DNA of 64,000 bases from Nautilus pompilius (Eukaryota > Mollusca > Cephalopoda > Nautilida > Nautilidae): contig JACATO010000069.1 of the NCBI GenBank assembly GCA_018389105.1, positions 808,501-872,500 of the forward strand, given 5' to 3'. Position numbers and translations under genes: made by a program. Under the pieces are notes generated by a model that saw nothing but the letters and a program-made list of their open reading frames with translations, did not search any database and was not told the DNA's origin. Shown here piece after piece: positions 30,301-36,300 of this stretch; position 1 is the first letter of the stretch; each line of letters begins with the position of its first letter.

Positions 30301-33300
30301 GATGTCCAGCCCATCTGTGTCCTGAATACTCAGTGCAAGCAGAATGGATACTTCAAGCTGTGAAGAATGTAGAAACTGGATGTCACCAGTTAGCTGGAGA
30401 TATCCAAGTAGAACCATCAAATGTTCACAGTATAGGGTTCAACAGAAGACCAGCAAGATGCTAACAACAACTTAGCCCAAACACTTACATCTTAGAAGTC
30501 TCTTTTTAAATTTACTTTTTTGAGTCCAGGTTGAGATAATGTATAGGTGTGGTGGTGTTCAGCAAAGGAATTTGCATTGAACCATCAGCAAGCCACGACA
30601 AAAAATATGGTGGTCTTGTTTGTTAGGGTAGGGTGGGTGAGATTTGGGACATTGGATGGTCATAGTGGTGCTCTGTGGAAGGAAGGAACTGAAGTCTAAA
30701 AAGTTGGGGGCAGTGTTTTTATGGAAAAAAAATATCACTGCACAGTACCCCCCCCCCCATCTCATTGTCTGGTCAGAACGGATGGATCATCTTTGACTTC
30801 AATCTCTGTGAAGGTGTTCTCAAACTATTACTTAAAATCTGCATGATGGTGTCCTATGCCAGAAATGGGCTTCAATATTGCAGATGGTGATTACTGTTCT
30901 TCAGTCTTGCATGAAGCAAAGGGCTGCACTGGCAGTGAGTGGTATGTATGGTTCCTGAATGAAAGTCAAGTTTGAAGGAACACTATTTACTTATGTCAGT
31001 GCCTGTATAGTATTTTTTAATATGAAACTTTAAATCTGGTGTGCAACTTCTTTTTTTTTTCCTAAGGAATATGTATATATTACTAACTTGTAATCATTTT
31101 TATAATGCTAGCTCAAGGGTATATTGTAAACAGTAGGAATGCTCATTAATTTATTATTCTTTGCGATATAATTTTCTTTGTTACTACTAGGTATAAATTT
31201 AATCACTGTTAAAGATAGTGTTGAATGGAGTGGTAAAGTCAGTCTCAGTATGAGAATGAATTGGTCTATTACTAACAATTTTTGTTGGTTTATTTATGAT
31301 TTTGTAAAAATTGAGCTATTGTTGAAGCAAATGGGTCTCTCTGCCTTATGATGAAAATAATACTCTTATTAATGTGTGGTGATATCCTCCAATACTGAAG
31401 GCAGAGAAACTCCATATTTACTTTCATTTAAAAGGAAGATTAACCACAGGAAATGTTCTTATAAATCGATTTACAAGACACATAACTGCGTTTATTTTTC
31501 TAATTCATAGTAGTCAAGTTCTGTATCAAATGTTACTTGTATGTTTCACCAGTAAAAAAAAATTTTTAAATACCTATTTAAAAAAAAAAACTGTATTTAT
31601 GCACCTTAAGTCATTATTTATTATAGTTGCATAATTATATCCTTTTTTTATTTTTGGGATAACCATACATTTTGCTATGACAAGATTAGATACTTTGACT
31701 GTTCAAGTTACCATTATTGGAACTTTTTCTCAAGAACTTATCAACTGGGATGACAACTTCCCTTTTGTTTAACAAAGTGCATGTCAATTTGTTTCTACCA
31801 GCATTGCATTTTAGGGCTCTGATACTTTCATTAGTAATTGAGATAAGAAATACTAAGCTCAACAGAATGTATTAATAAGGTAAGAGAAAATTAAATAGTT
31901 TTTATTAGGGTGCAAAAGTTTCTTACTAATTTTTTGTGATGGGAAAACAGATAATTTCATTTTTATTTTTAAGTGAGAGACTAGAGGTTATTGATTGCAT
32001 GAGCATAAAAAATTCTAAATCTTTACAATATTTAGACAAGCCATCAAAATAAATAGCCTATTTTGTCATTTTAGTCTCTCTAGCAAGTTTCAAAAAAAAA
32101 ACTTCTTTGAGAGTTGGCAGCGATGCTAATAATTTAATTTTAAAATTTTTTATAGTTCTGTTCCATTTAAAAAGTTTGTCATTTTTATTTTTCAGGAAGA
32201 GGGCCATTCAGATTGGGTGTCATGTGTTCGTTTTTCACCAAGCACATCCAATCCTATCATTGTCTCTTCTGGTTGGGACAGGATTGTTAAGGTATGTAAT
32301 ACATGCGTGTCTATGCATATAATTTGTATTCTCAGTGTGAAACAGTCTTTTGTAGTAGAATAGTTAAATTTATTTTGCAGTTTTCTGCCCAATGATTAAA
32401 CAAACTACATAAATCCTATTTGATAAATTATGAAAAAATTTCCTGCAATTATGAGGGCTGGTACTGCTTAGATCCAACACTTGTAGCAAGCTCTGACCTC
32501 TTAGCAACTTACCTTAATTCTTTACATCCCATACTATTCTTACTATTCACAAGCCTCATTCCCATAAGAATTTGGGACTAAAGTTGCTCTTGTTTTATTT
32601 AATGTTCAGATTTTAATGTGGGTGGTTTGGCTACATGCCAGATGCATTTTTGTTGTGAAATAGTTAATTTTGAAAATGGTTTAAAAATATTAAGAAATTG
32701 CTATTGTTTCATGTACCTGTAATAACAAGACTTTAAAAAAAATTTGTTTATTTTTTGCAACACATGAGTGAACACACCAACCAAAAACATGCATAGTTAC
32801 TGACAATAATTGAACCATTGATGAGGTAATCCACAAGTGAAAACAGAACAGTTATTGTTCAAAGCATATCACACTCAGCACACATTCTTGATTTACATCT
32901 CCATAATGTTGAAAGTTCACAAAGTAACAGCAATTCTGTCAAGAGACAGTCACAGCACACTGTTGATGAACTACATGCATTGAATGCATTATCTGCAGGT
33001 AAATGGTTACAGGTAAGGTCTACAGGTATTTTTGTTCAGTGACAATGTTCTGCTGGAAGTTGTGAAATCTTCCAAAACAACCGCTCTCTCTGCTCAGATC
33101 AACATCAGTTTCTACACTCCCAGGAAGACTGAACTTTGGTTCCTGCCTGTCATCTGAGCACAACCCTGAACATGGAAGATGGGGTGAAAGTTGAAGAAAT
33201 TGCAAAGCTTGTTGATTATTATGTCCCAATGGTTTCCTTGGCCCAACAAAACTAAAATCTTCAGGGTCTCTGTTAAATACAGCATCAGTCCACTCATCTG

Positions 33301-36300
33301 AGAAAAATTTGTCACTTGACAAAAATCCAGTAATTGCTGCTTCACTCAACAAGTCTCGTGCATGCTACTAACAGTAGAGGTGACATAGTGGTGTTACTCT
33401 GGTTGTCTTCACTTAGTCCAAGATCTTTCCTGAATAAATTCAATAATATCCTGATCACTGTTAGTCCTTTCATCTGCCATGATGGCAAAAAAAGATTAGA
33501 GAAAAAAATTGTTGGGGAATGACAATGCCAAATGAACGTTTCAGGAAGTCAACTCTCTTGCACAGGAGCTGCTGCCTATGAGGTCACTTCTGAGTTTTAT
33601 CGTGTCGGTGTGGTATCATGCAGTCTAGGAATATATTGCTCATGCAGTATGGTGTGGAATGGGATATGGGGAGTTAATGCTTCAAACAAACAAGTGATTT
33701 ATCGAATAAATTTCTTACTGATGTACTTATTAGTCCTGAAATATTTACTATTGTATTGATAATGCTGGATGACAAGCAATTTGCTACTGAGGTAAAAGTA
33801 TGTCTTTAGACTAATTCAAGTATGCTGTTTTTAAATCTGAAATCAGAATTAACCCAATACATAAGGATTTTTAGTTGCAGAAATAAATGGAAATCTATTG
33901 TTATATCTTTAGTGTTCTTGTTAGTACTGTGTATACACAGCAGGCGGTGTGCGAGAACCATGCGGTTGCCTGCTTACATGTACACGCACATGCTGCTTGT
34001 GGAATAGCTGAGACTATACTCCAGGAAAATTCAATGTGCAATGTGTGCCACTGGTACATCTGCAAAGCATATTTCTTCCACCGTTGCATATAAAGCTGGG
34101 CCTAATGAAGAGCTTTGTAAAGACAATGAGTGTTGAAGGTGTGGGATTTCTCTAAAAGAAAAATTGGAGTGATTTTTAACTGATGCAGAGTTGAAGACCA
34201 ATATTTGTCAGACCACAAATTCGGGATTTATTTTCCAATCCAGTCTTCCAGTCAAGGGTTAACCCACTGGAGCTGGCTGCATGGAGGCTTTCAAACTGGT
34301 GGTCCAAAATTTTCTTGGGAACCACAAAGCGGACAACTATTCCCAGTTGATTTGAGACTTGATAAAAGCCTTTGAAGAAATGGGTTGCTGTATGTCGCTG
34401 AAGTTGCATTTTTTTCGTTCATGCTTGGATTTCTTTCCAGCCATTCTTGGTGTTGTGAGCGATGAGCATGATGAGAGGTTCCACCAGCACACAAAGCCAA
34501 TGGAGACAGGCTATCAGGGGAGATTCAACTCCAACATGATGGGGGATTGTTATTGGTTTCTTCAGAGACAAATGACTGCTGCTCACTAGCGTAAAATCAA
34601 GTACTTAAAACATTTCTAAACAGTTAATGTATACTTCATATGAAGTGTTTATGTTCAATTTGTTTGAACTTTTGGGAAATTAATTTATATTTTGCAATTT
34701 TTCAATGTGCTTGATTTTTTAATAAACAATGAGTGAAAATGACATTTCCCTGTAACTACAAATCCTGTTGTGCTAGGAATTCTGACTTCAGTGTGCTTGA
34801 TTTGATAAAGGACACCTACATGTGCCTCAGTAGCAGACAAAAAGTTTTATTTTTGTTGTTCAGTGTAATTTGTAATTGAAGTGATATCCCAGACCATCCA
34901 CTCCCAACCTTTCCAGATTTCATAAAAATTAACAAATGGCTGAATTCAGTCTTGCATGATTTGTCTAAAATAAGAAAATTTTTATATCTATTATTTAGGG
35001 AGTTTCTCGTGTTGACTTCATGGCCACAAGTAATTTAATAATAATAGCTGGTATTCTTAATCTTAGATTTTTCATTTTAATTCTCTTTTGCTTATTTTTG
35101 GTATAAGATCTGAAATTATGAAAGGGTTTTTTAACAATCTTTGAGGATCATTGCTTGTGATCTGCTGTAATGAATTAGAGTAAGTCTGTTTTTGTATTAC
35201 CTACCTAAAATAATGAAAATATTACTTGAAATCTGACTTAATGTTTGCCCTATGATTACAAAATGACATTATATTCATTTGAAAAAACTTGAAAAGACGT
35301 CCTGCAATTATGAGGGCTATTTATTATAACAGTAGATCTAATGCATTTTGGTAAAAATGTGGAGGATGTCAGTTATCTCCCCTTCTTTATCAAACAAACA
35401 AACCTTTTATTCTGGGAAATACCCAAATTTGGTAAACCAACCACGAAGAAAAGTTAGATTTGCATATACACAGTTTTTTATATGTATTGTTGCAATAGTA
35501 AATTTGAATTTTTTAAAATTACTTTTCTTATGTTTGCATATTTCTTACCTGCATGTATTGTTTTAGGCATTTTCTTAATTTCTACAATTTTGCAAGTCAG
35601 TTTTCCTTGGAATGCAGTCTATAACCGATCTTTGAAGGCATTTGACAAAGTTATGGGTGTCATGAATGCTAAGAAATGACTATAAAAGCAGATGTAGGTT
35701 CATTGTCTCTTATTATATCGAATGATTATCCATCTATGCTTGAAGTATACATCTAACTGCTAAAATTTGTCAAAAAAGTTTTTTCTTTCAAATGAGCTTC
35801 TCACTTTTGCTCTTCTGACGTTCTGTAAATTATATAAGTAGATAATGATAATTCTAACTAATTATAGTTAGAAAAGAATGTATTTTAAAAGAAATAGTCT
35901 ATACACTGATAATTTTTTTGGAATATAACAATATCTGGAAATTTATGCTTATTTTCCCTTGATACTTGGAATACTAACTGCCTTTTTGTTGTCTATATTG
36001 CTGCACAGGTGGAAAGCAGTTGGTCTGTTTATAACCGCACTATAGCGGCCAAACTTTTACCTTTTTTATATGCACTGATCTCAATGCATTATGGGTGATA
36101 GTGTATTGTTTTTTCTTTCCTTAACATGACTAAATCTTTCTAGTCTTTATTTTTTCTCTCAGACAATACTCTATATAATTTTCTTTCTTGTGTGCTTTTA
36201 GTTTTTCTACATTGTATAGCATTATTTAACCAAAATATGAAAAAAGAACATGCATTAGCTTGGACTAAGGTTGAGTTTTCATTTTAAATTTGAGTAAAAT

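Follow-up and report, generated by a model that had tools for sequence, protein, structure and literature searches.

In Nautilus pompilius, the RACK1 gene very likely hosts four box C/D small nucleolar RNAs (snoRNAs) in three of its introns, of which the two in intron 4, here called copies 1 and 2, are predicted with the same confidence to guide methylation of a G in the 5.8S ribosomal RNA (rRNA) of one of two ribosomal DNA (rDNA) classes in this genome, class A. The stretch analysed, called the window below, comprises 64,000 nt of the forward strand of contig JACATO010000069.1 (positions 808,501 to 872,500). A sequence-only reading of it had placed two elements with a common GCCC/GGGC stem, box C ATGATTA, box D ATGA and one guide in intron 4 of RACK1, and both were found as claimed. 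The identity of the host was likewise borne out: seven coding exons were located by tblastn with the human RACK1 protein as query, all six introns have GT..AG ends, and the joined exons encode an open protein of 318 amino acids, whose best-matching PDB entry is named RACK1. The host and the two elements are placed as follows.

27364..40174, plus strand: coding part of the RACK1 host gene, 7 exons by tblastn
27364-27472, 28884-29055, 29890-30037 and 32196-32291, plus strand: RACK1 coding exons 1-4, by tblastn
36739-36849, 37099-37242 and 39998-40174, plus strand: RACK1 coding exons 5-7, by tblastn
32387..32458 (72 nt), plus strand: copy 1, candidate C/D snoRNA with a SNORD96-type guide, from box and stem reading and scan; box C ATGATTA at 32392-32398, guide TCCTGCAATT at 32441-32450, box D ATGA at 32451-32454
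35247..35317 (71 nt), plus strand: copy 2, candidate C/D snoRNA with guide TCCTGCAATT, from box and stem reading and scan; box C at 35252-35258, guide at 35300-35309, box D at 35310-35313

Intron 4 (32292-36738) holds both copies in sense orientation. Each consists of GCCC, one base, ATGATTA, 42 or 41 nt, TCCTGCAATT, ATGA and GGGC, so that boxes C and D and a short terminal stem are present and the guide directly adjoins box D; in copy 1, a D' box TTGA and a C' box ATGAAAA were also read by eye. The guide is identical in the two copies at 10/10 positions, and the internal region at 25/42 (17/42 differ); at the rate of the internal region, a fully conserved guide would have a probability of 0.006. 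Only the snoRNA body shows significant similarity between the copies (75 nt, E 3.7e-10); a segmental duplication of intron 4 sequence was not seen, as this similarity ends at the snoRNA boundaries.

The class A 5.8S rRNA of this genome contains AATTGCAGGA, with which copy 1 forms a duplex of 10 bp and copy 2 one of 11 bp, neither with a mismatch or a spacer. For both copies, the fifth nucleotide from box D falls on the G at position 74 of class A 5.8S, which we take to be the equivalent of human G75. The complementarity to 5.8S rRNA proposed in the sequence-only reading holds for the species' own class A, in the register of human Gm75. An excerpt of one study names SNORD96A and a second human copy, SNORD96B, as the guides of human 5.8S Gm75 (PMC5597630), and an excerpt of another gives Arabidopsis Gm79 as the counterpart of human Gm75 (PMC8351944). 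The duplex of copy 2 scores 11, against a maximum of 10.1 for shuffled guides. The 10-mer TCCTGCAATT occurs twice in the 64 kb against 0.24 expected, and two or more occurrences were seen in 3 of 100 shuffles, so the guide by itself is just mildly unusual. The weight of the target case lies in the register, in the known modification site and in a guide kept at 10/10 amid the internal differences.

A de novo scan of both strands, which required a box C, a box D, Watson-Crick pairing of box C base 6 with box D base 1 (C6/D1) and a stem of at least 4 bp, returned four matches in the window, two in intron 4 and one each in introns 3 and 6 of RACK1, all in sense orientation; 60 dinucleotide shuffles gave a mean of 0.32 and a maximum of 3, a comparison that is somewhat flattering in that the rules were picked after the elements were known. 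Without the coupling rule, the window yields five matches and the shuffles a mean of 1.3 and a maximum of 5. The scan recovers both intron 4 copies, and the elements in introns 6 and 3 go beyond what had been noted.

39592..39655, plus strand: copy 3, candidate paralogous C/D snoRNA in RACK1 intron 6, from scan and alignment
31338..31407, plus strand: unrelated candidate C/D snoRNA in RACK1 intron 3, from scan

Copies 1-3 align, with the stem and boxes common to all three, but copy 3 is without the 5.8S guide. It folds better than its shuffles (z -3.37), and its D' guide can pair over 9-11 nt with AGCTAATACAT in the 18S rRNA of both rDNA classes (shuffled guides reach 12.4). We take AGCTAATACAT to be human 18S 166-176, which includes Am166 and Um172, a stretch that overlaps the 159-174 guided by human SNORD45/SNORD44. 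The predicted site varies with the D' box chosen, being U172 with CTGT and U169 with TTGA, and the likeness to SNORD45/44 lies within that of shuffles; the putative 18S target of copy 3 is a lead and nothing firmer. A 15-nt pairing of its D guide with a T-rich class B 28S fragment, with one mismatch, was dismissed as low-complexity chance. The intron 3 element has a box C ATGATGA, a box D CTGA and a 9-bp stem, and also folds better than its shuffles (z -3.78). Its D guide can pair over 10 nt with 28S ATTGGAGGAT in both classes, where shuffles reach 12.4. An identification with SNORD95 was rejected, since the 28S site was judged not to coincide with any site of SNORD95.

In the canonical kink-turn, base 6 of box C pairs with base 1 of box D. 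By this rule, the two positions pair in all four elements, as the canonical G-C in the intron 3 element and as T-A in copies 1, 2 and 3, where the pair is kept because both boxes deviate jointly from their consensus. The Rfam consensus of SNORD97 and of U54 likewise has a U at C6 coupled to AUGA. The D' and C' boxes of copies 1-3 (TTGA, NTGAAA) may, by eye, permit the same coupled reading. The SNORD97 (RF01291) consensus UUGCCC-AUGAUUA-AUGAGGGCAA is also close to the stem and box letters of copies 1-3. However, the guides of SNORD97 and U54 (RF00206) differ from those of copies 1-3, and both families have hosts other than RACK1. In the comparison with these two families, copy 2 scores 25.3 and copy 3 26.0 bits, below the gathering thresholds (45 and 40).

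Genome-wide, the guide followed by box D, TCCTGCAATTNTGA, occurs at 46 sites against 135 in the reversed control, and the word is therefore not enriched. All 46 contexts were inspected: a box-C-like heptamer lies within 100 nt upstream at five of them, and a stem of at least 4 bp together with paired box positions at two, namely the RACK1 copies. Within 727.6 Mb, the paralogue pattern GCCCNATGATTAN{38,67}ATGAGGGC is matched exactly three times, each time in RACK1, and the reversed control has one match. That the elements match by chance or are relics that are not expressed, for which the lack of enrichment and a copy 1 duplex no longer than those of shuffled guides would speak, is very improbable in view of the combined evidence of stem, boxes, coupling, host and register. 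At C31:568418-568431, TCCTGCAATTATGA follows a coupled ATGATTA, with the stem absent; this may be a chance occurrence or a decayed copy.

Several observations weigh against the reading of copies 1 and 2 as functional 5.8S guides. The perfect stem is just 4 bp in both, and copy 1 folds at shuffle level (z -0.06). The duplex score of copy 1 (10.0) is ordinary, given a median best of 9.1 and a maximum of 12.1 for 20 shuffled guides, and pairings with one mismatch reach near-equal scores, for copy 1 with class B 18S (9.8) and for copy 2 with class A 18S (10.4). At the guide site, class B 5.8S carries ATTTGCAAAA and is without AATTGCAGGA in 5/5 copies read (on C319, C429 and C1478 and two on C1743, of 14), so that a 5.8S divergence which the sequence-only reading had named as damaging applies to these class B copies and not to class A; aligned to class A over the guide-site stretch, the remaining nine class B copies score the same as these five. 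On the SNORD96 covariance model (RF00055), copies 1 and 2 score 19.0 and 20.9 bits against a gathering threshold of 43, and the unrelated intron 3 element scores 23.7, above both. Lastly, mammalian C/D snoRNAs prefer a position about 70-80 nt upstream of the 3' splice site, and both copies are off this optimum: copy 1 starts 95 nt into intron 4, counted from the 5' splice site, and copy 2 stops about 1.4 kb short of the intron's 3' splice site. The distances to the respective 3' splice sites are about 340 nt for copy 3 and about 790 nt for the intron 3 element. Because these distances deviate from the mammalian preference, snoRNA processing here may depend on stems or may differ. The weaker fold of copy 1 (z -0.06 vs -2.09 for copy 2) and its shorter duplex (10 vs 11 bp) would also fit a state with just one working intron 4 copy, its duplicate being redundant or in decay. 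This is conceivable but doubtful, as neither copy has lost its guide, box D or stem despite an internal identity of 25/42.

The scores above bear on family membership. Formal membership in SNORD96 (RF00055) is rejected, as the proposed Infernal check leaves both copies well short of the score needed, and no match in the window reaches gathering. The model does not discriminate here, because the unrelated intron 3 element outscores the copies. A genome search with RF00055 gave four matches at E<=10 among the best 50 of 225609 candidates, none above the cut-off and none with the guide word; it is insensitive, because both RACK1 copies are missing among the matches listed. The SNORD96-like identity proposed earlier survives in the guide, the target register and the RACK1 host, and fails as Rfam family membership. 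The likeness is to human SNORD96A (U96A), which shares a RACK1 intronic host, a guide adjoining box D and a predicted target at 5.8S Gm75, the guide here addressing the G75 equivalent in class A only. Unlike SNORD96A, there are two copies per intron, box C is ATGATTA and box D is ATGA; SNORD96A lies in human intron 2, whereas the copies here lie in intron 4 and score below the Rfam threshold. Human SNORD96B lies elsewhere than SNORD96A. According to excerpts, human RACK1 carries U95 in intron 1 and U96A in intron 2 (PMC3941584), and chicken GNB2L1 carries U95 in intron 6 (PMC2653536). There is thus precedent for RACK1-hosted snoRNAs switching introns, since U95 is in intron 1 in human and in intron 6 in chicken. 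Judged by sequence, the copies would work like SNORD96, and their kind is already known. Among the open-access titles and abstract starts listed, there was no invertebrate RACK1 snoRNA guiding 5.8S and no two such in one intron; on this weak evidence, two copies per intron and a non-vertebrate RACK1 with four snoRNAs may be undescribed.

The two rDNA classes of this assembly are highly divergent, and class B appears intact. At least 18 5.8S matches are listed, and the class counts are lower bounds: at least three of class A (130 bits; C811, C1266, C1860), one degenerate (C295) and at least 14 of class B or variants (C319, C429, C1478, C1743 and others). The 18S genes of the two classes share four longer blocks at 87-90% identity and an 81-nt block at 95%, with other stretches unaligned, and both give full-length matches to the Rfam 18S model (A 1546.9 bits, B 1504). 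Spacer motifs of 40-51 nt are common to both at 84-89%, and class B is present on a 1.93-Mb contig (C319); these two observations argue against foreign DNA. Among the matches listed, those of class A all lie on contigs of 20-48 kb, and given these short contigs, contamination as its source is conceivable. The G+C content of 18S is 53.8% in class A and 44.6% in class B. An excerpt of a published study gives three nautiloid 18S sequences an average of 52.9% and 2360 nt (PMC2841657), a composition closer to class A than to class B. A search for a guide fitting class B 5.8S, TGATNAN{38,67}TTTTGCAAATNTGA, gave six distinct sites (7 rows), none of the six with stem plus coupling, and three reversed-control matches; it covered exact letters only, and inexact guides were not searched. 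At two of these sites, a 4-bp stem poor in G+C occurs without coupling. That the two rDNA classes make two kinds of ribosome, with the RACK1-encoded guides methylating class A 5.8S only and the duplicated guide and guide-less paralogue shaped by the split, is an idea we consider unlikely. As a separate observation, the class A 28S on contig C811 (315-9295, minus strand) extends over 8981 nt from one end of the LSU model to the other, with several kb extra upstream of the peptidyl-transferase motif, either an insertion or a giant expansion.

From anatomy, host, complementarity, register and the similarity of copies 1-3, we infer a history of paralogy and a course of expression, processing, protein binding and methylation. 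Copies 1 and 2 would be paralogues released from spliced intron 4. In each, boxes C and D would form a kink-turn in which U-A replaces the usual G-C; the RNA would bind the fibrillarin small nucleolar ribonucleoprotein (snoRNP), base-pair with class A 5.8S rRNA over 10-11 nt and thereby specify the G that corresponds to human Gm75 for 2'-O-methylation. The guide-less paralogue, copy 3, may act on 18S through its D' guide. Exonucleases alone would presumably not free both intron 4 snoRNAs, so that either an endonuclease acts or a long noncoding RNA with snoRNA ends (sno-lncRNA) forms. In the latter event, snoRNPs would block exonucleases at both ends and leave a 2.9-kb RNA (32387-35317) instead of, or besides, separate snoRNAs. 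Human sno-lncRNAs arise from introns with two snoRNA sequences, as stated in an excerpt of PMC9175010, and that architecture is present here, with the outermost ends of copies 1 and 2 spanning 2931 nt. Nonetheless, an endonuclease cut between the copies would part them and the stems are short in both, and we hold such a transcript to be improbable.

Upstream of RACK1, a sub-threshold mir-3661 match (26663-26746, 35 bits, gathering 77) lies antisense to a minus-strand open frame, which we take to resemble exon 1 of a gene for a PP2A catalytic subunit, and probably reflects coding conservation and not a microRNA. This frame stands head-to-head with RACK1. Neighbouring open frames at 23489-25348, which resemble pieces of a hAT-type transposase, fall in the would-be first intron of the PP2A-like gene.

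If the reading of copies 1 and 2 as 5.8S guides is true, a Gm75 guide would reside in RACK1 of both an invertebrate and human, which would make a test case for the duration of a guide-host association amid intron changes. The duplicate and the guide-less paralogue would represent a snoRNA family splitting within one gene. With two rDNA classes, of which one fits the guide, class-specific ribosome modification becomes testable.

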